This document shows, piece after piece, positions 530-19,940 of a stretch of DNA of 31,113 nucleotides. The stretch's first letter is position 1. The number at the start of each line of letters is the position of its first letter. This DNA is from a virus, in IMG/VR virus record IMGVR_UViG_3300028572_000024, positions 1-31,113 of that record. One strand, given 5' to 3'. Made by a program: the position numbers and the translations under genes. The notes below the pieces were generated by a model, which saw only the letters and a list, made by a program, of their open reading frames with translations, was not told the origin of the DNA and ran no database searches.

Positions 530-770
530 TTGTAGGCTCCAATACAGCAAGGATAGCGTCTTTGCGCACTAGGAAGAACACGGCTTCTTCTTGGGTGACT
601 TTGATAGCATGCTGCGAGGTGAATAGAACCTCTTGGCCTTTGTGTAAGTCTAGTAGCTTGTAGGAGCCTGTTCCTAGCTGGTAGATGGTACCTGAGCAAG
701 AGTACTTATCATCTTCGCAAGTGCCGATATCGCCTATAAGCGCGAAGTCTTCTCTGATGTCTTTTAACAT
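522..770 (-). CDS. GroES-like co-chaperonin protein, second copy
   Basis: 82 residues. The order of elements matches the GroES (Cpn10) barrel: a short N-terminal strand (FALIGDIG), a SGTIYQLGTGS segment equivalent to the RGEVLAVGNG turn, a GQEVLFTSQHAIKV segment equivalent to GDxVxFxxxxGxxV, and a C-terminal VRKDAILAVLEP matching the xExDILAIVE end. The N-terminal half is more divergent than in its neighbour, so the mobile loop that contacts GroEL is not obvious. It begins 7 bases inside the preceding GroES-like gene, so the two are probably translated together. Possible roles are help with folding of the capsid protein (as T4 gp31 does) or a non-chaperone use of the fold. Confidence 0.55.
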   Translation of the reverse strand: MLKDIREDFALIGDIGTCEDDKYSCSGTIYQLGTGSYKLLDLHKGQEVLFTSQHAIKVTQEEAVFFLVRKDAILAVLEPTNG

Positions 771-1030
771 AGGATACCTAAAACGTGGTCTTGGGGCACA
801 AGCATAAAGCTTTCGCCGTCTATTGTGTACTCTCTAGCTGCGTAAGGGTCAAATAGTATCCTGTCGCCGTCTTGGTAGACTGTAGTCACTAGAGGGCCGT
901 AGTCAACTACTGTGGCTATGTTAGCAGGTGCTTTTTTGTGAGAGTCGGGCATGATGATAGCACCTTGAGGGGCTGGCGCCTCTTTCTCTACTCTGATAAG
1001 CAATAAGTCTCTTAGGGGCTTTAGTAGCAT
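764..1030 (-). CDS. GroES-like co-chaperonin protein, first copy
   Basis: 88 residues with a clear GroES pattern. It opens with KPLRDLLLIRVE (GroES: KPLxDRVxVK), then a mobile-loop region with GAIIMPDSHKK, then ANIATVVDYGP, then DGDRILFDPYAAREYTIDG, and ends with FMLVPQDHVLGIL (GroES: xxExDILA). Length is a little under the usual 95-100. Phage versions such as T4 gp31 replace host GroES so that the capsid protein can fold inside GroEL. Its start overlaps the stop of the small basic protein upstream by one base (TAATG). The location just ahead of the terminase genes points to head assembly. Confidence 0.8.
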   Translation of the reverse strand: MLLKPLRDLLLIRVEKEAPAPQGAIIMPDSHKKAPANIATVVDYGPLVTTVYQDGDRILFDPYAAREYTIDGESFMLVPQDHVLGILC

Positions 1031-7329: not shown

Positions 7330-7358
7330 GGGCGCTAGAGATAGCGCCCTTTTGTTTT
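7330..7358 (+). terminator. Plus-strand-facing intrinsic terminator
   Basis: GGGCGCTA (7330-7337), GAGA loop, TAGCGCCC (7342-7349), then TTTTGTTTT. An 8-bp perfect GC-rich stem and a T tract on the plus strand only, yet the genes on both sides are on the minus strand. The T tract covers the helicase stop codon. Confidence 0.8.
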
Positions 7359-8754
7359 AGTAACTCTTTCGATTTGGAAATACGTCGTCGGGTATTTCAT
7401 CTATCGCCCTAACTTGAGCTGACTGCTTTTGGTTTTTAGATTCGTAATAACGACCCGTAGCTGCCTCGAAGCACATTCTTACGATTGATCTTTTACCTGT
7501 GTGACGATTTTTATCTAAGTTAACTAGCACTTCGCCGGGGTTATTCAGGTGATCTTGTGCGTCTGGGCGGTGAATTAGCATTGCAATATCCACTGATTCC
7601 TCGATTGCTCCGCTTTCTCGTATCTGGTGAAGTGAGGGGCAGCGGTTGCCGTCTTTAGCATTCTCACGGTTAAGCTGAGCTAGAACCACGATTGCAACGC
7701 CAGTTTCCTTGGCGATAGATTGAAGCTCGTGAATGATATCCGTGAACTTCTCGTGAGGGTTGCTAGTCTTTTTATCACTACGCATGAGCGTCAAAAAGTC
7801 CACTACGCAAATCTTAATCCCGTGCACTTTTTGCATGTAGTACATGCGAGCCCTGAGCTGAGAGGGTGTTAAAGCTGCTGTCTCGTCATAGCAAAGCTTA
7901 GAATCTCTGTACCACTGAGCCGATTGATAAATCGCCATTACCTCGCGAGATTCCATAGTTTTTTCAGGGCGTTCAATCCGATCGACCTCCAGTCCCGATT
8001 TGATAGCGACTAAGCGAGCGTCAATTTGAAATAGTGGCATTTCCATGGAGAACATTCCGACCGAAACTTTCATATCTAGCCAGTTTTTGACTAGATTGAG
8101 AACGAATTGGGTTTTACCTGAAGAGGTGCGACCGCCGATTAGGACGAGCGAGCCTGGTCGAACGCCACCGGTCATTTCGTCAATGCGCGGTATTTTGTAA
8201 GGAATGCCTGGAAGTGTTACTTCGCCTCGTTGAGCGGCTTCAAGCCTTTGCTTAAAAATATCCTCGAACGTTTTACCTTCCTGAGAGTTATTCATTGAAG
8301 TCGGCGTATCACAAACGGTTTGCTTCGTTTCGAATGAGATCAGAGCCAACTTCTCTTTAAGCTCAGAAATGACCTTCTCTGCGTTATCGCTATCGAGTTT
8401 GATATTAGCTAGCTTAAATCCGATTTCTTGGAGCCTACATAGCTTTGCGTGGTTCTGGATCAATTCTGCGTGATGCTCATAATCGAACGCGTAAGCCGAG
8501 TCAAAGCAATCGGTTACTATTTTTAAGCAGTCTTGTCCGTTTCTAGCTGATCTCTCGGTATAGAGAGAGGCTACGCGAGCAAGTGTGATCTCTTTTTTTT
8601 GCTCTAGAAGAACCTTGATGCAAAGAAATATGAGGCGAAAGTCCTCATTTTCAAAATCCTGTACTGCTATACGATCCATGATCGAGTACATGCTTAGGGT
8701 GTCTCTGATGCAAGAGCCTATGAGGATCTGCTCAGATGTAAAAATGTCTTTCAT
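7357..8754 (-). CDS. dnaB: Replicative DNA helicase, DnaB type
   Basis: 465 residues, the usual DnaB length. Residues 1-100 form the helical N-terminal domain. After a linker comes the RecA-type ATPase: Walker A GGRTSSGKT (207-215), MFSMEM (234-239), Walker B ICVVDFL (315-321), LAQLNRE (358-364), ESGAIEESVD (390-399), and the basic KNRHTG (415-420) near the arginine-finger place. The hexamer unwinds the phage fork and moves on the lagging strand. The upstream gene encodes the likely initiator or loader. AAGG precedes the ATG; a TATAAT on the minus strand (8794-8789), without a good -35, may give an extra start of transcription. Confidence 0.95.
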   Translation of the reverse strand: MKDIFTSEQILIGSCIRDTLSMYSIMDRIAVQDFENEDFRLIFLCIKVLLEQKKEITLARVASLYTERSARNGQDCLKIVTDCFDSAYAFDYEHHAELIQNHAKLCRLQEIGFKLANIKLDSDNAEKVISELKEKLALISFETKQTVCDTPTSMNNSQEGKTFEDIFKQRLEAAQRGEVTLPGIPYKIPRIDEMTGGVRPGSLVLIGGRTSSGKTQFVLNLVKNWLDMKVSVGMFSMEMPLFQIDARLVAIKSGLEVDRIERPEKTMESREVMAIYQSAQWYRDSKLCYDETAALTPSQLRARMYYMQKVHGIKICVVDFLTLMRSDKKTSNPHEKFTDIIHELQSIAKETGVAIVVLAQLNRENAKDGNRCPSLHQIRESGAIEESVDIAMLIHRPDAQDHLNNPGEVLVNLDKNRHTGKRSIVRMCFEAATGRYYESKNQKQSAQVRAIDEIPDDVFPNRKSY

Positions 8755-8789: not shown

Positions 8790-9479
8790 TTATACGCGAC
8801 TTGTGTTATTAGCCGCTAAGTTGTCTTGAATAGCTACTCTGAGGTAAGCGAAAGGGTTTTTAACCTTCTTTTTGCCTCTTCTAGACTTCACATACTCGAC
8901 ATTTCGCTCTATGCGATCGAAAGAAAAGCGCTCGGCCATCTCGCGGCAGAAGTTTTTATCCGCTCCGAGGCCATGCAATAGCTCTTGGCTTTTTTCTACT
9001 TCGGCTTGATCTCTCACTCGTGGTTTTTTTCCCTCTTTTGGAGAGGGACAGGCAGAAACCTTTTTCCCATCTGTACAATTAACAGAGTTAATTTCTTCTT
9101 CCTGTATATAAGGATAGGGCGGACACGAATGTCCTACCCCCCGGACAGAAATGTCCGCCCTAAACTTTTCTTTAAAGCGTGATTTCTGGACGGCGTAACT
9201 TTGTGGTTGGATAGCAAAAAGGTGTCGCCTTTCGTTAACAAATTCCCTGATCAAATGGCCTTTTTTGATCAAATTTTCTAGATATCGTCTTATGGTTCTA
9301 TCGCAAACATTGAATCGCTCCATAAAATGAGAATTGCGAACTATGCAAGGCGTGCTTTGAGAAAGAGCGCATATTTCTGACCACAATAGGATTTCTACAG
9401 GTGACAATGATTTGTCGCAGTAGATAGGTGCTGGGATCGAAATTGAGGTGAATTGATATGTTGGCTGAGTGCTGCTCAT
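8790..9479 (-). CDS. Winged-helix replication initiator / helicase loader-like protein
   Basis: 229 residues. Residues 24-85 fit a winged helix-turn-helix: SLSPVEILLWSEICALS, then FMERFNVCDRTIRRYLENLIKKGHL as recognition helix and wing, as in phage replication proteins. The middle (100-160) is low in structure and is encoded by a repeat cluster that looks like an origin. The C-terminal part (165-229) is helical and basic, with FDRIERNVEYVKSRRGKKKVKNPFAYLRVAI, a pattern common at the end of phage initiators. It sits 35 bases upstream of the helicase gene, as in lambda O/P-like layouts. Binding to the repeats inside its own gene is an inference. Confidence 0.75.
   Translation of the reverse strand: MSSTQPTYQFTSISIPAPIYCDKSLSPVEILLWSEICALSQSTPCIVRNSHFMERFNVCDRTIRRYLENLIKKGHLIREFVNERRHLFAIQPQSYAVQKSRFKEKFRADISVRGVGHSCPPYPYIQEEEINSVNCTDGKKVSACPSPKEGKKPRVRDQAEVEKSQELLHGLGADKNFCREMAERFSFDRIERNVEYVKSRRGKKKVKNPFAYLRVAIQDNLAANNTSRV
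9070..9161. other. Putative replication origin: nested repeats beside an AT-rich tract
   Basis: Bases 9116-9125 (AGGGCGGACA) and 9152-9161 (TGTCCGCCCT) are perfect inverted arms. Inside them are two direct copies of GGACA-nnnn-TGTCC (9121-9134 and 9143-9156, loops CGAA and GAAA), each a small hairpin. The flank 9070-9113 is AT-rich. Repeats plus AT-rich DNA inside the initiator gene is the lambdoid origin plan. The repeats are seen; the origin role is inferred. Confidence 0.45.
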
Positions 9480-9514
9480 AGCGGAGTCTTATTGCTGAGT
9501 ATTGAAAATAATCA

Positions 9515-9639
9515 GTGGCTCGAGCTAAGATTTTGGCCTATTTTCTTTAAAAATATGGCGGAACCTGTTAAGTTCATTTTGTCTTAGCTTTCGAGCCACC
9601 TAGCCCTTCTCACTTAGTTCCTGAGAAGGGCTTCTTTTT
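9515..9639 (+). ncRNA. Candidate structured RNA: three-helix junction plus terminator
   Basis: Plus strand. A closing helix joins 9515-9530 (GTGGCTCGAGCTAAGA) with 9582-9599, 16 pairs with a two-base bulge. Inside are hairpin 2 (GCCTATTTT 9536-9544 with AAAATA-T-GGC 9550-9559, five-base loop) and hairpin 3 (GAAC/GTTC, 9561-9575). Three bases later comes an intrinsic terminator. No ORF of note fits. No strong promoter is seen; AATAAT at 9507-9512 is the best -10 but lacks a -35. Alternatively the same helices, on the other strand, are a structured leader of the initiator mRNA. No known RNA family recognised. Confidence 0.5.
9602..9639 (+). terminator. Intrinsic terminator after the structured RNA
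   Basis: AGCCCTTCTC (9602-9611), 11-base loop, GAGAAGGGCT (9623-9632), then TCTTTTT. The 10-bp stem is perfect; the T tract exists on the plus strand only. Confidence 0.85.
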
Positions 9640-9680
9640 ACCTTAATCCAGTCGCCTGTTTCTTGAATAGTGTAGAAAGC

Positions 9681-9704
9681 AAAAAAGAGCCCTTGTAGGG
9701 GTCC
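9681..9704 (-). terminator. Weak minus-strand terminator candidate
   Basis: GACCCC, TACAA loop, GGGCTC, then six T on the minus strand. One C-C mismatch interrupts the stem. It would end the transcript of the 54-residue coiled-coil gene. Confidence 0.35.
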
Positions 9705-9709
9705 TTGTG

Positions 9710-9726
9710 ACATATGTAACATATGT
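9710..9726. promoter_or_regulatory. Tandem palindromes, operator candidate
   Basis: ACATATGT occurs twice, at 9710-9717 and 9719-9726, separated by one A. Each copy is its own reverse complement. It lies between the 54-residue gene and the initiator gene, where a repressor could act. The rest of 9640-9740 holds no gene that I can support. Confidence 0.45.
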
Positions 9727-9740
9727 GAGTTCTGTAAATC

Positions 9741-9905
9741 TTAATCGTTTTTACTAAGCATGACGTTCAAGAAGCTGTGTATTCTAACTTTCAGTTGATC
9801 GTTCATCTCAATAAGTTGCTGCTCTCTTTCCTCTAAAGCTTTCACTCGCTGAAGAGTCGCCGCTAAATCTGCGTAGGCGTCTGCCAATTGCTGCCTTAAG
9901 TCCAT
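9741..9905 (-). CDS. Small coiled-coil protein, unknown function
   Basis: 54 residues, MDLRQQLADAYADLAATLQ onward. It is almost entirely one amphipathic helix with heptad-spaced Leu/Val (a likely coiled coil), ending VMLSKND. A strong AGGAGATG lies 6 bases before the ATG. It sits between the ribbon-helix-helix candidate and the initiator on the same strand. A small regulator or partner protein is possible; no family recognised. Confidence 0.6.
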   Translation of the reverse strand: MDLRQQLADAYADLAATLQRVKALEEREQQLIEMNDQLKVRIHSFLNVMLSKND

Positions 9906-9940: not shown

Positions 9941-9968
9941 CTGACACTTTAGGCACTTGCAGTATAAT
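9941..9968 (+). promoter_or_regulatory. Strong sigma70-type promoter, plus strand
   Basis: CTGACA (9941-9946), 16-base spacer, TATAAT (9963-9968): 5/6 and 6/6 matches. Expected start near 9975. Confidence 0.75.
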
Positions 9969-9986
9969 TCTACGTATGTCTATACT
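9961..9986. promoter_or_regulatory. 26-bp palindromic operator candidate over the promoter
   Basis: AGTATA-N4-TACGTA-N4-TATACT: both the outer arms and the centre are symmetric about 9973/9974. It covers the -10 box and the expected transcription start, where a bound protein would block the polymerase. Confidence 0.6.
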
Positions 9987-10079
9987 TACTCAAAACCTCC
10001 GAGCTTCACTGTTCGGGCACCTCAATTGTGTTTTCTCAGGTTGTGTTTTTAGGTCGCTGGATTAAAGCGGCCTTTTTTA
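9975..10079 (+). ncRNA. Candidate short transcript (about 105 nt), RNA or leader peptide
   Basis: It is bounded by the promoter at 9941-9968 and the terminator at 10052-10078, so a short transcript is expected. It contains one open frame of 29 codons (9976-10065), beginning ATGTCTATACTT almost at the predicted 5' end (so leaderless if used) and stopping inside the terminator loop. There is no ribosome site. It could be a regulatory RNA, a tiny peptide gene or an attenuator ahead of bet. Confidence 0.5.
10052..10078 (+). terminator. Intrinsic terminator
   Basis: GGTCGCT (10052-10058), seven-base loop, AGCGGCC (10066-10072; one G-T pair), then six T. It faces right, towards bet, and its T tract overlaps the stop codon of the minus-strand gene at 10077. 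Confidence 0.8.
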
Positions 10080-10253
10080 TTTCGTCTTCTTTCCAGATAA
10101 AAAAGCGTCTAGCGCTTGCTCAAAAACGTAAGCATTCATGACTTTCATGCCTTGCTTTGCTTCCTGCTGTAAAATTTCACGGCATTTGCGGAATTTGTTG
10201 AGGACGCTCACTGTGATTTTCAGCTGAAACGAATTGTAATCTTCATTGATCAT
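10077..10253 (-). CDS. Ribbon-helix-helix-like small protein, candidate repressor
   Basis: 58 residues from MINEDYNSFQLKI. The frame is open to 10361, but that extension would cross the bet promoter, so the short form is chosen. A strand (FQLKITVS), a helix (VLNKFRKCREILQQEA) and a second helix (NAYVFEQALDAFL) follow the ribbon-helix-helix order of Arc/CopG-type DNA binders. It is divergent from bet, and its start codon sits in an ATACGTAT palindrome, which suits autoregulation. Fold and role are inferred. Confidence 0.5.
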   Translation of the reverse strand: MINEDYNSFQLKITVSVLNKFRKCREILQQEAKQGMKVMNAYVFEQALDAFLSGKKTK

Positions 10254-10259
10254 ACGTAT
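10252..10259. promoter_or_regulatory. Palindrome at the ribbon-helix-helix gene start
   Basis: ATACGTAT overlaps the ATG of the 58-residue gene and shares the TACGTA core with the operator candidate at 9961-9986. Further on, CTGTA (10290-10294) and TACAG (10310-10314) flank a second TACGTA (10301-10306). Confidence 0.4.
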
Positions 10260-10262
10260 CAC

Positions 10263-10291
10263 TTGTTTGTATTTGTTACTTAAGATATACT
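10263..10291 (+). promoter_or_regulatory. Promoter for bet and the following plus-strand genes
   Basis: TTGTTT (10263-10268), 17-base spacer, TATACT (10286-10291). Expected start near 10298, about 46 bases before the bet ATG. Confidence 0.65.
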
Positions 10292-13551: not shown

Positions 13552-13934
13552 AAGTAATTGAACCCCCTAAGATGCAAAAAGCTCTTTACATAGGTAAAGA
13601 CTCTAGTCGCAAGCGTGAATATGTCGATCACTTAAAATGGTTAGGTGATGAATATTCAATTTGTTTTCTAAATGAGCTTTGTGTTGATGATCAAGAAGCT
13701 CAGGAACTTAGAGCTAAGGATTACTTCTCATTGTTTGACTTTGAGGTAGTCGCTTGTAGCAACAATCCTTTCTTTATCAATGCTGCCCCTCTTGAAGCGA
13801 TACATATTTGCACTAGAGTCGAAGACACTCTCGTAATAGATAACATACTCAGCAAGCCCGAAAAGTTTGCGGAATGGAGAGCTCTTGGGCTCCCTAACTA
13901 CGATTTGCTCACCTCTGAGTTTTTGTACAAATGA
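13548..13934 (+). CDS. Unknown protein
   Basis: 128 residues, started by ATGA overlap. Mixed alpha/beta, acidic, with a YIGKDSSRKREYVDHL segment after the first strand that faintly resembles a phosphate-binding turn but lacks a Walker motif. No family recognised. Confidence 0.55.
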   Translation: MKVIEPPKMQKALYIGKDSSRKREYVDHLKWLGDEYSICFLNELCVDDQEAQELRAKDYFSLFDFEVVACSNNPFFINAAPLEAIHICTRVEDTLVIDNILSKPEKFAEWRALGLPNYDLLTSEFLYK

Positions 13935-15185: not shown

Positions 15186-17993
15186 CTAAAATACCGAGTA
15201 TGAGGCGCCATCAAAGATAACGCTGATTGATTGATAGTTGACGTTGAGCACATAGGAAGTTACCCCATCGATAGTCACCGCTCCACCCACTGTGGTTACA
15301 GTGATGTTGCTAGTAGCTGCTGCACCAGAGGCATCTTTGACAGTCCAAACTTGACCAGTCACTGGAGCGTTAGGGAGGAGGAGAGTAATCACACCACCGC
15401 TAGTCGCACACGATAGAAATTGATCTGTTGTGAGGACAGTGTAAGGAGAAGCTCCATGAGTTACAGGGGTCAACGCTTGAACGCTAGTCGTAGGAATAGC
15501 CTGAACACCTAGTTGGTCTGTAGAGCTATCTATGACCACCATTAGAGGAGTGCCACCTAGAGTGTTGCCATTCACCCCACTTAGGAAGAACTCTGCTAAT
15601 TGTTGGTTGGCAGTTCCTGTTCCTGCCCCTATCCTTCCAACATTGGACTCACCAACCACACCATAGCTGTTGATACAAATATTGCTAGATTCGCTAGATG
15701 TGTACCCTTCACCACTGTTGGCTCCTATACCTACGCAAAAAGAACCTGTTACTAGGTTGGGAAGACTATTAACACCAAAAGCACTGTTATTAATTGCGCT
15801 TCCAGCTCCATTAAGAAAGGTTAAAGATTGGTACCCAAAAGCTGAATTGCCACTATCAGAAACAGATTGTTGCAGACTTAAAAAACCTGTAGCTGTTGAT
15901 TGACCTACACCATTAGCTGCATACATTGACTGATAACCAATGGCGACTAGTCCACCATCCGAAACACAATTTACAAGTACCTGTGCACCAACTCCTACGT
16001 TTTGATGAGCTGAGGCAGCATTATTAAAACTTCCACTTCCAAGAATAGTGTTACCACTCCCAAATAAAGGGGCAACCACTCCAGAGCCATTTCCTATGAT
16101 GGTGTTTTGGTTGTTATCGCTTAAATTTAGCGTGCTAGTTGTGCCACTATTGCTAAAAGAAACTGTGCTACCTGCATTTAGAATGGCTTGATTAGCGAAA
16201 ATTTGAACTGTGTTACCTGTTATACTTCCAGAATCGCCAACGATTGTCTGGATAGCGCCAGATAGAAGGCTAGTCACTCCAAGTTGGTTGGATGTGCTGA
16301 TCGTAACAACTTGAGGCCCTGCTAATAGAGGGTCTTGAGTGAATTGATTAATACCACAGAAATATGCAGCTTGAAACTGGTTCTGAGCTGGAGAACCTGT
16401 AATGTCACCAATTCTGATAACCCCATTGTCCCCTGAAAGACCATTGGAGGCTATGCAGACGTTGAAAGAGTCGCTGGAAGTGCAGCTTGAGCCAGCACTA
16501 TAGCCAAGCCCTAGGTTGCCCTCCCCTGTAGTTATATTTGAAAAAACAAATGCTCCCAGCCCTGATGAGTTCTGCCCTGTAACTAGCGAGCCAAAGCAAT
16601 CAGTACCAAAAGCTGAGCAGTTGTTAGAGCCATTTATTGAGTAGAGAGCGCTGTCACCATAAGCACAATGGTATTGGTCATTTTGTGAGCTATAGAGAGC
16701 TTGAAATCCTGTTGCTGTGCAGCCTACAGAGGTCAAGCTTTGATACATGGCTTGGTAGCCTTCTGCCACTGTAGAGTTAGGTGTAGTCGCACTAAACAGA
16801 GCCTGAAAACCTGAAGCTAAGCACTGTGACCCAGAGATATTGGAATACATCACCTGATAGCCTGTCGCTACGTTAGCATTGCCTCCCATACCCCCAGAGT
16901 TAGTTGAGTACATAGCTTGAAAGCCTAGAGCAGTATTCTGGGCGTCCTGAACACTACTAAAGAGAGCTTGACATCCTACAGCAGTTATACCACTAACACC
17001 ATTAAGATTCTGTAAAGCTCCGTCACCAATTGCTACACAATAGCTATCGCCAGCTGTGCTATAAAGGCTTTGTGCCCCTACAGCTACGTTTGAATTACAG
17101 TTAGTACCTGATGTAAAAAGGCTTTGGTATCCATATGCAGAATTTCGTGTGGCATGGCTTGGCGAGGTGCCTTGCATACTCTGTGAACCAAAAGCACAAT
17201 TGAAACTGCCCCCTTGGGTATTTGTGAGCGTGTTAAAACCAAAACAACTATTGTCGCTGTCTGTAAAAGAAGCAAATAAGCTGTTGTAACCAAATGCTGA
17301 GCAGTTATTAGCGCTACCCCCACCATTGAGCTGAGCGAGTGATTGATACCCAAAAGCTGAGCAGCCTGTATCGCTTACAGTTCCACTTAGCGCAGTGTAA
17401 CCACAAGCTGTTAAGCCTATAGAGCCATTAAGACTATATAAAGCTGAGGTGCCAATTGCTGTTGAATAACTATCATTGACACTTGAGCGTAGAGCTTGAT
17501 TTCCAACTGCTACTGTGCCAGAACCACCCACCAGTGAGTATCCACATTGTGTGCCCACAAGGGTGTTTTGTATCCCTGTAAGGAGATTACTAGCATTGCC
17601 ACTTTGTTGGCCTAGGCAGGTGTTTCCATTGGTATCAGAAAGCTGAAGCTGAAGATCTGTATTGCCTGATATACCCTCAAAGAGGACTGTGCTACCACAG
17701 TAGTTGTCGCCATGATCCGCATAGACATAGATGTTAGGGCCATAGACTGGAACCCCTGTGTCACCATTGATGATAGTGCCACCACTAGCAGCTAGGTCGA
17801 TCGTCCCGTTACCAAGATTAAACAAAATAGTATTGTTAACGCTTGTAAGGAACCCAGACCTAATAAAAGGGGCCGTTGCCGACCCGATTAGAAGCTGGCC
17901 ATCGGCCGTCATTTGATCGACAACGGGTGTAACACCGCGGAAATCCACGTTGGTAGCATAAAGCGTAGAGTTGGAAAAACCGTGGACTGACAT
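15186..17993 (-). CDS. Long modular tail fibre with YadA-type head repeats, paralogue 1
   Basis: 935 residues. Residues 1-38 are identical to those of the next gene and probably the virion anchor. Then two rounds of one module: GDTG/GDSG strand block ending GSTVxF, SDxNxNT and xLG; many 14-25-residue repeats of the type S-A-x-G-x-x-A-L (YadA-head like); and a closing block ICINSYGVVGESNVGRIG plus GTGT, FFLSGVNGNT and MVVIDSS. The last 100 residues (YTVLTTDQFLSC, ITLLLPNAPVTGQVWTVKD, SISVIFDGASYSVF) form a C-terminal domain widespread in phage fibres. Trimeric receptor binding is inferred. Confidence 0.8.
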   Translation of the reverse strand: MSVHGFSNSTLYATNVDFRGVTPVVDQMTADGQLLIGSATAPFIRSGFLTSVNNTILFNLGNGTIDLAASGGTIINGDTGVPVYGPNIYVYADHGDNYCGSTVLFEGISGNTDLQLQLSDTNGNTCLGQQSGNASNLLTGIQNTLVGTQCGYSLVGGSGTVAVGNQALRSSVNDSYSTAIGTSALYSLNGSIGLTACGYTALSGTVSDTGCSAFGYQSLAQLNGGGSANNCSAFGYNSLFASFTDSDNSCFGFNTLTNTQGGSFNCAFGSQSMQGTSPSHATRNSAYGYQSLFTSGTNCNSNVAVGAQSLYSTAGDSYCVAIGDGALQNLNGVSGITAVGCQALFSSVQDAQNTALGFQAMYSTNSGGMGGNANVATGYQVMYSNISGSQCLASGFQALFSATTPNSTVAEGYQAMYQSLTSVGCTATGFQALYSSQNDQYHCAYGDSALYSINGSNNCSAFGTDCFGSLVTGQNSSGLGAFVFSNITTGEGNLGLGYSAGSSCTSSDSFNVCIASNGLSGDNGVIRIGDITGSPAQNQFQAAYFCGINQFTQDPLLAGPQVVTISTSNQLGVTSLLSGAIQTIVGDSGSITGNTVQIFANQAILNAGSTVSFSNSGTTSTLNLSDNNQNTIIGNGSGVVAPLFGSGNTILGSGSFNNAASAHQNVGVGAQVLVNCVSDGGLVAIGYQSMYAANGVGQSTATGFLSLQQSVSDSGNSAFGYQSLTFLNGAGSAINNSAFGVNSLPNLVTGSFCVGIGANSGEGYTSSESSNICINSYGVVGESNVGRIGAGTGTANQQLAEFFLSGVNGNTLGGTPLMVVIDSSTDQLGVQAIPTTSVQALTPVTHGASPYTVLTTDQFLSCATSGGVITLLLPNAPVTGQVWTVKDASGAAATSNITVTTVGGAVTIDGVTSYVLNVNYQSISVIFDGASYSVF

Positions 17994-17996
17994 AGG

Positions 17997-19940
17997 TTAG
18001 CCTATTTGTGATGCAAATGTAGTTGTAGAAGTGACTGTTACTGTTCCAGAAGTTGTTATCTGTGCATAAAACTTAGCAGGGACTACAAAGCTAAAGTATT
18101 GACTTGAAGCACCTGAAAGAGTTGGAGTGATAGCTCTAGCTGTTGGGCTGTTAGTAGAACCTACACCCACACTAACCACACCTGTAATCGCAGCAGAGAT
18201 AACCATCTGCACATGCACAAGGATAGGGTAGTTGGCAGTGTTCTGGAGGGCTGTACCTACAGATAGGGAACCATAGGTAGTAGACGCTGCACTAGCTTGA
18301 ACTGGCGTAGGACAAACAATTTGACCATCTGATGTATCTGTAAGGGTTAGGTAAGGAGTAGGAGAACCTGCTGAGAGGGTAGCTCCTGCAATACCTTGGA
18401 TATAGGCTTTGTTTAATTGATAGTTGCCTGTGCCTGTGGCATGGCCAATTCTTAGGGTGTTAGACTCTGAGACCACCCCAGCACTATTGATGAGGATGTT
18501 GTCACTCTCAGTACTTGTATAAGCACTACCTGTGGTAGTACCTGCCCCTACGTTGCGAGAGCCACCTGTCATTGAAGAAAAACATTGATACCCCATACCC
18601 ACGTTGCCATTAGCATTGAAAGAATTGTTAAGAACATTCAAACAATTGCTGCCTACCGCAGTGTTTTGGATGCCGTGCGCAGATTGATTTAAGGCGCCAA
18701 ATCCTAGAGCTGTGCAGTCTGAAGAACCTTGTGCAGCACCAAGTGCCCCTAGGCCTACCGCTACGTGGTTCAAGGACGCTGAGGATGTACCCAGAGCACC
18801 ATATCCAATGGCTACGCAATATGCTGAGGATGAATTTGAGCTCATCGCCCCCCAGCCTACCGCAGTATTGTCTTGGCCTGTATCGGCAGCATTTCCAGCG
18901 TTGGTACCCAAAAACAAGTTATTACTTGAGTCCATCACATCTAGAGTAACTGTCGTAGTCCCTGAGACAAATTTAACTGTACTACCGCAGTTTCGTGTAG
19001 AGTTGCCTGTGGTAAGGGTTACTGCACCATCTACAGTCGTTCCAGAATCACCCACTAGTGATGTAACTCCACTAGTTGGAAGTGGCATTGTTCCAAGCTG
19101 ATCAGAACTATTGATAACCACCATGAGAGGGGTAGTTAAGGCTGTATTGCCATTGATGCCAGAAATAAAGGATGTCGATAATTCTCCAGTGCCAGTCCCT
19201 GTAGCCTGCCCAATTTTAAGGCGATTACTAACCCCTGTATCACCGTAGCTGTTGATACAAATTGAGCTTGATTCCGCACCGTTTAGATAGATCCCAGCAT
19301 TGTATCCAAGGCCAGTCGTATAGTTTCCCGAGGACAAATTGGCTAGGGCTTGTGCTCCAAAAGCTGAACAGTATGAGGAACCTGAAAGACTGCTCAAACC
19401 TAGGGTTCCAAAACAACTATTATAAGTCCCTGATGTTATGGAGGTTGAAGATCCTTGACCGAAACTGCAATTGGATATCCCGTTCGTGAGTGCGGTTAAA
19501 ACCCCCGCTCCCAGCCCAGTGTTCGTAGACCCAGTAAGAGAAAGATTGCCTGTATTGATGCCCAGAAGGGTGTTATTGCTTGAGTCAGTTACATTGAAAG
19601 TAGCTGTCTGAGCACCGTCTGTCGTGAAGGTTACGCTTGAGCCGCAATTTAGAGCCGCTTGATCAGCATAAAGGGTAACTGCACCTGTAACGCTTTGGCC
19701 AGAATCGCCAACGATTGTTGTAACGCCGCCGATAGTCTCTAGGTTGATCGTGCCATGACCCACGGTAATATCAACCGTAGACCCTACACTTGTAAGCAAA
19801 CCAGATCGAATAAATGGAGCAACGCTTGAACCAATAAGAAGTTGGCCATCTGCTGTCATCTGATCGACGACTGGAGTTACGCCGCGAAAATCGACGTTAG
19901 TTGCATAGAGCGTGGAATTAGAGAAACCGTGGACTGACAT
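17997..19940 (-). CDS. Long modular tail fibre, paralogue 2
   Basis: 647 residues. Same 38-residue N-terminus as the 935-residue fibre and two rounds of the same module (GDSG block, NTGLGAGVL-type repeats, SSICINSYGDTG and NILINSAGVV closing blocks with RIG and GTGT), but fewer head repeats. The C-terminal 110 residues (PVQASAASTTYGSLSVG to TTTFASQIG) are unrelated to the other fibre, so the two probably bind different receptors while using the same attachment point. It ends three bases before the paralogue's start. Confidence 0.8.
   Translation of the reverse strand: MSVHGFSNSTLYATNVDFRGVTPVVDQMTADGQLLIGSSVAPFIRSGLLTSVGSTVDITVGHGTINLETIGGVTTIVGDSGQSVTGAVTLYADQAALNCGSSVTFTTDGAQTATFNVTDSSNNTLLGINTGNLSLTGSTNTGLGAGVLTALTNGISNCSFGQGSSTSITSGTYNSCFGTLGLSSLSGSSYCSAFGAQALANLSSGNYTTGLGYNAGIYLNGAESSSICINSYGDTGVSNRLKIGQATGTGTGELSTSFISGINGNTALTTPLMVVINSSDQLGTMPLPTSGVTSLVGDSGTTVDGAVTLTTGNSTRNCGSTVKFVSGTTTVTLDVMDSSNNLFLGTNAGNAADTGQDNTAVGWGAMSSNSSSAYCVAIGYGALGTSSASLNHVAVGLGALGAAQGSSDCTALGFGALNQSAHGIQNTAVGSNCLNVLNNSFNANGNVGMGYQCFSSMTGGSRNVGAGTTTGSAYTSTESDNILINSAGVVSESNTLRIGHATGTGNYQLNKAYIQGIAGATLSAGSPTPYLTLTDTSDGQIVCPTPVQASAASTTYGSLSVGTALQNTANYPILVHVQMVISAAITGVVSVGVGSTNSPTARAITPTLSGASSQYFSFVVPAKFYAQITTSGTVTVTSTTTFASQIG

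Follow-up and report, generated by a model that had tools for sequence, protein, structure and literature searches.

The window analyzed here is the whole of IMG/VR virus record IMGVR_UViG_3300028572_000024 (31,113 bases), and its source is an uncultured tailed bacterial virus. A second fragment, IMGVR_UViG_3300028552_000030 (G001), bridges the right end of the record to its first 127 bases, suggesting a circularly permuted genome of ~40 kb, and the part joined in this way encodes products that, by eye, resemble large terminase, portal, and capsid protein. Among the phage's open frames that were searched, we saw no integrase-like frame, and no lambda-like lysogeny genes were seen in the phage. 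Elsewhere in the record, positions 764-1030 (minus strand) encode a phage GroES-like co-chaperonin (PHROG 3188, E 3e-11), and positions 15186-19940 (minus strand) encode two long proteins (935 and 647 aa) that have the N-terminus MSVHGFSNSTLYATNVDFRGVTPVVDQMTADGQLLIGS in common and carry many SAFGYQSL-type repeats; these are probable tail fibres or adhesins derived from a duplication.

The subject of this report is the non-coding stretch that folds most tightly in the whole record; it lies directly ahead of the DNA-replication genes. All genes around it (encoding the 67-aa ORF, the 54-aa ORF, the initiator, and the DnaB helicase) are on the minus strand. The features of the locus are as follows:

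7357..8754, minus strand: DnaB-type replicative helicase, the next operon gene after the initiator
8790..9479, minus strand: replication initiator gene (HTH_36; PHROG replication initiation protein)
9110..9167: origin-like repeats in the initiator gene; a 25-nt inverted repeat holds two copies of CGGACAnnAATGTCC
9480..9740, minus strand: untranslated gap from the 54-aa ORF to the initiator, i.e., a leader with both structures (junction and terminator hairpin)
9502..9531, plus strand: sole fair promoter candidate on this strand, TTGAAA-18-TAAGAT, 11th best of the record
9515..9530: closing helix, left arm, GTGGCTCGAGCTAAGA (5' arm on the plus strand, 3' arm on the minus strand)
9536..9559, minus strand: inner hairpin 1, present on either strand and slightly longer on the minus strand via a G-U pair
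9538..9639, plus strand: putative antisense RNA of ~102 nt whose complement is the initiator leader, predicted by combining the promoter candidate with the terminator
9561..9575, minus strand: inner hairpin 2, with 6 pairs on the minus strand (including G-U) and only 4 on the plus strand
9582..9599: closing helix, right arm, TCTTAGCTTTCGAGCCAC, with a 2-nt bulge
9602..9639, plus strand: intrinsic terminator (11-pair hairpin at 9602-9632, loop of 9, tail TCTTTTT)
9741..9905, minus strand: 54-aa ORF, upstream on the initiator's strand, with a good Shine-Dalgarno sequence and no family
10077-10280, minus strand: 67-aa ORF, upstream
from 10344, plus strand: RecT and YqaJ exonuclease genes

A preliminary description, made from the letters and their open reading frames, had proposed a strongly structured three-helix junction closed by 16 pairs, and folding analysis bears this out. 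In the closing helix, GTGGCTCGAGCTAAGA pairs with TCTTAGC-TT-TCGAGCCAC through 16 Watson-Crick pairs interrupted by a TT bulge of 2 nt, at the positions first assigned to it. More specifically, region 9500-9645 folds at -51.2 kcal/mol (z -6.7) on the plus strand and at -53.8 kcal/mol (z -7.2) on the minus strand, with none of 200 shuffles as stable on either; for 9515-9639, none of 300 shuffles folded as well on each strand. When the entire 31-kb record was scanned in 125-nt windows, this element ranked first on the plus strand and second on the minus strand. As no shuffle equals it and it takes top ranks in the scan, the fold is real and unusual for this genome.

Both long helices are purely Watson-Crick and thus uninformative as to which strand carries the element. 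The inner hairpins, which contain two G-U pairs on the minus strand that become A-C mismatches on the plus strand, are more telling. Both of the proposed inner hairpins are present in the minimum free energy (MFE) and centroid structures of the minus strand, whereas on the plus strand hairpin 9561-9575 drops out of the MFE structure (by 0.2 kcal/mol from the optimum). Likewise, the inner 51 nt were matched by 5 of 500 shuffles on the minus strand and by 40 of 500 on the plus strand, the latter being a weak result. This evidence, modest as it is, favors assigning the junction to a minus-strand RNA, in which G-U pairs complete it. The alternative mentioned in the preliminary description, a leader element on that strand, is its better-supported half. 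In contrast, the T tract following hairpin 9602-9632 is functional solely on the plus strand. Because the junction favors one strand and the T tract serves only the other, the element is not a single object on a single strand.

The terminator hairpin (arms AGCCCTTCTCA and TGAGAAGGGCT; -15.8 kcal/mol) stands where it had first been placed, T tract included, but comprises 11 pairs rather than the perfect 10 described; read on the minus strand, it has no T tract. It lies on the strand opposite the initiator and in the gap upstream of that gene, as antisense control would call for, and a plus-strand RNA ending there is indeed antisense to the initiator leader, as originally stated, since the gap is read on the minus strand. 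As every gene of the block is on the minus strand, use of this terminator requires a plus-strand transcript that ends at it. The promoter candidate at 9502-9531, located 70 to 100 nt before the terminator, could supply one, although 80 of 1000 shuffles of the local region (8%) were as good. It overlaps the 5' arm of the closing helix; an RNA from this promoter (start at ~9538) would therefore lack that arm and could not form the closing helix, and the predicted 9538-9639 RNA folds chiefly as the terminator hairpin. When potential targets of the plus-strand RNA were sought elsewhere in the phage, the strongest non-self duplexes were not distinctive. On the minus strand, the stretch from the fold to the initiator gene held no promoter scoring >5.1, so transcription of the initiator probably begins farther upstream and includes the fold, although the same gap also has a weak terminator-like hairpin on this strand, at ~9707-9690.

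The initiator gene itself has two features of interest. There is no Shine-Dalgarno sequence before its ATG (ACCUCCUUA, duplex of -1.5 kcal/mol), which places its match among the poorer ones of the phage's genes; ~17 of the 43 gene starts tested have a duplex of -5 kcal/mol or stronger. In addition, the element sits, as first described, just upstream of a gene that contains origin-like repeats. The two copies at 9110-9167 (CGGACACGAATGTCC and CGGACAGAAATGTCC) adjoin an AT-rich stretch in a strongly folding region, and judging from these sequence features they may constitute a replication origin.

Other terminators and one further candidate RNA occur in the vicinity. Adjoining the structure, positions 9941-10081 (plus strand) likely encode a small RNA of ~105 nt (9975-10081), with a promoter (CTGACA-16-TATAAT) that has the top score of the record and is reached by 4 of 1000 local shuffles, and with a terminator at 10051-10073. 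Its positions 9996-10080 match Rfam family RF02837 (anti-hemB) over the full length at a sub-threshold score (27 bits versus a gathering score of 49.5; E 0.0023 in 4 kb), and it contains ACCTCC, an anti-Shine-Dalgarno sequence. This unit is a better small-RNA candidate than 9515-9639. A perfect 8-pair hairpin with TTTTGTTTT at 7330-7349 (plus strand), directly behind the minus-strand dnaB gene, is the third antisense-oriented terminator in this gene block. Within the minus-strand replication block, a strong 11-pair intrinsic terminator with T8 (5213-5184, minus strand) is found just before a RusA-like gene.

To place the element among known RNAs and phages, we compared it with Rfam and searched for relatives. 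No Rfam family reached its gathering score anywhere in the 31,113-nt record, and within 9450-9760 the best match had an E value of 0.44, all matches being at chance level, plasmid antisense-RNA families included; the element thus belongs to no known RNA family covered by the Rfam covariance models, as had been held. No tRNA or tmRNA was found. Relatives were sought in viral contigs via the initiator, DnaB, RecT, YqaJ, and the 1468-aa and 870-aa structural proteins; the initiator and RecT were also searched in genome contigs, and the DNA of the locus in phage and plasmid records. No intermediate relatives emerged from these six proteins and two DNA patterns, or from two genome scans, the matches being confined to fragments of the same phage that are nearly identical, some very distant helicases, and a single distant exonuclease. 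Just one further record spans the locus, and it shows no difference there; over 5152 bases, its sole mismatch lies at 13857. Three very distant phages with a homologous initiator beside DnaB (L013, L014, and L023) have neither a structured leader nor an antisense terminator, which shows that initiator-DnaB operons do not generally carry the element. Several apparent matches were rejected: an 18-bp exact match in another contig (L025) is due to chance, having no partner arm and no further similarity, and sixteen viral contigs with GTGGCTCGA-N52..82-TCGAGCCAC are likewise chance matches, sharing 0 to 2 inner 7-mers, mostly GC-rich. By eye, no target duplication was seen at the ends of the element, and a MITE-like insertion was discarded. 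The structure is real, strong, lineage-specific, and of RNA type.

We tentatively favor, at somewhat below even chances, the following explanation: the locus would be a two-sided control site ahead of the initiator-helicase operon, comprising a folded mRNA leader and a short, terminated antisense RNA that restrains the initiator. On the minus strand, the initiator mRNA would have an untranslated leader that folds first as an 11-pair hairpin and then as the three-way junction, which would end ~35 nt ahead of the start codon. On the plus strand, a short antisense unit would point away from the initiator and stop at the terminator at 9602-9639. Base pairing between this RNA and the leader, or polymerase collision, may then reduce the amount of initiator made, and replication would be adjusted in level or timing by the lowered initiator synthesis; the sense leader, through its fold, could display the target or shield the start region. 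From the arrangement of the locus we infer both transcripts and this regulation. Several features support the explanation: (i) the folds exceed those of shuffled sequences; (ii) the junction forms better on the minus strand; (iii) the plus strand carries a strong terminator; and (iv) the initiator has a poor Shine-Dalgarno sequence. It is weakened by the modest plus-strand promoter candidate and the overlap of that candidate with a helix arm, by the lack of such elements in L013, L014, and L023, and by a switch pairing at chance level.

The layout of the locus, with origin-like repeats inside the initiator, an outward-facing plus-strand terminator, and poor start signals, appears by analogy to match known counter-transcript controls. 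In lambda, the pO/OOP arrangement includes a short terminated RNA that lies opposite to, and runs away from, an initiator gene with an internal origin, and it resembles our locus in being from a phage and in having the RNA site between the upstream genes and the initiator; OOP targets cII, whereas the putative RNA described here would cover the non-coding gap only (PMC3985674). No sequence relation between OOP and this element was found. To our knowledge, a three-way-junction leader has not been described for lambda. RNAII of pMV158, which lies opposite the copG-repB gap just before the atypical start signals of repB and ends in a terminator, is similarly an antisense RNA from a pre-initiator gap with an intrinsic terminator and with atypical translation signals beside its target, but it belongs to a plasmid and consists of 48 nt with a single-stranded tail and the terminator hairpin (PMC4485353). 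The pMV158 repressor CopG has no confirmed counterpart in this phage: the 67-aa upstream protein was considered as a ribbon-helix-helix (RHH) repressor, and as its low-confidence single-sequence model is all-helical and not RHH, this parallel was dropped. In repABC, the antisense ctRNA comes from the gap ahead of the initiator gene, the origin lies within that gene, and the sense leader has a large stem-loop; gap position, location of the origin (origin-like repeats here) within the initiator, and the big sense-leader structure are all shared, whereas the repABC ctRNA makes the leader form a terminator and no minus-strand terminator of that sort occurs beside our initiator (PMC3155836). A repABC-type switch was rejected, since pairing of a helix arm with the region just before the start codon was reached by 156 of 2000 shuffles, no better than chance, and the alternative hairpin has no U tract; nor does the element have an Rfam match. 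Finally, ArrA of Bacillus subtilis is antisense to the 5' UTR of dnaA, so that its target, like that of the putative RNA here, is the untranslated leader of an initiator gene, but it is cellular rather than phage-borne, and a sequence relation is not expected (PMC12112137). The control that such an antisense RNA could exert would be of a familiar kind, in a virus where a single copy is known.

Alternatively, though with a lesser probability, the structure may act solely in cis on the minus-strand mRNA (through stability, RNase III-type processing, or ribosome access), and the plus-strand terminator may be an insulator against stray antisense transcription. That the junction folds best on the minus strand agrees with this, as do the insulator-like plus-strand terminators placed directly behind two further minus-strand genes, at 7330-7349 (dnaB) and at 10051-10073 (67-aa ORF); the latter layout, however, includes the record's best promoter and therefore looks like an RNA gene rather than an insulator. 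The original proposal of an independent, trans-acting plus-strand small RNA comprising the whole 125-nt element, which the evidence bears out only in part, is improbable: the plus-strand fold is stable and has its terminator, but the junction forms more poorly on this strand and is completed on the other, and upstream of 9515 a sigma70-like scan of 9380-9515 yielded a best -10 element score of only 5.0. Less probable again is a DNA-level element, either a single-stranded DNA hairpin (a site for priming or for the primosome) or a paired operator close to the origin; the inverted repeat is strong on both strands and lies ~350 bp from the origin-like repeats, but the 2-nt bulge and T tract suit RNA better, and the unequal spacing of the arms is poor for an operator pair. 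About as doubtful is a small plus-strand peptide gene. The claim that nothing coding crosses the structure is not proven, given a 44-aa plus-strand frame (TTG 9453 to 9587) and, read by eye, a 21-aa minus-strand frame (ATG 9577 to stop 9512); the former, or a 31-aa version from TTG 9492 with GGAG 5 nt ahead of it, ends 15 nt before the terminator, but neither family nor phage similarity was found for the 44-aa frame, frames of such length are not rare by chance, and a gene here would overlap the initiator start and leave the long helix unexplained. That the junction is a functionless, lineage-specific inverted repeat beside an ordinary terminator is the least credible explanation, for although a single phage lineage is known, the element has the record's best plus-strand and second-best minus-strand fold and occupies a non-coding gap ahead of a replication operon.

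At present, the locus amounts to a single strong fold in a single uncultured lineage. There is perhaps one chance in a few, in our estimation, that the locus represents an undescribed structured RNA family, in which a three-way-junction leader and a counter-transcribed RNA control initiator synthesis in a phage where no integrase was found. Plasmid-like antisense control of replication would be unexpected in such a phage; if both transcripts exist, a counter-transcript would control its replication operon. If true, this would allow one to ask whether non-lysogenic phages time their replication by plasmid-style RNA control.
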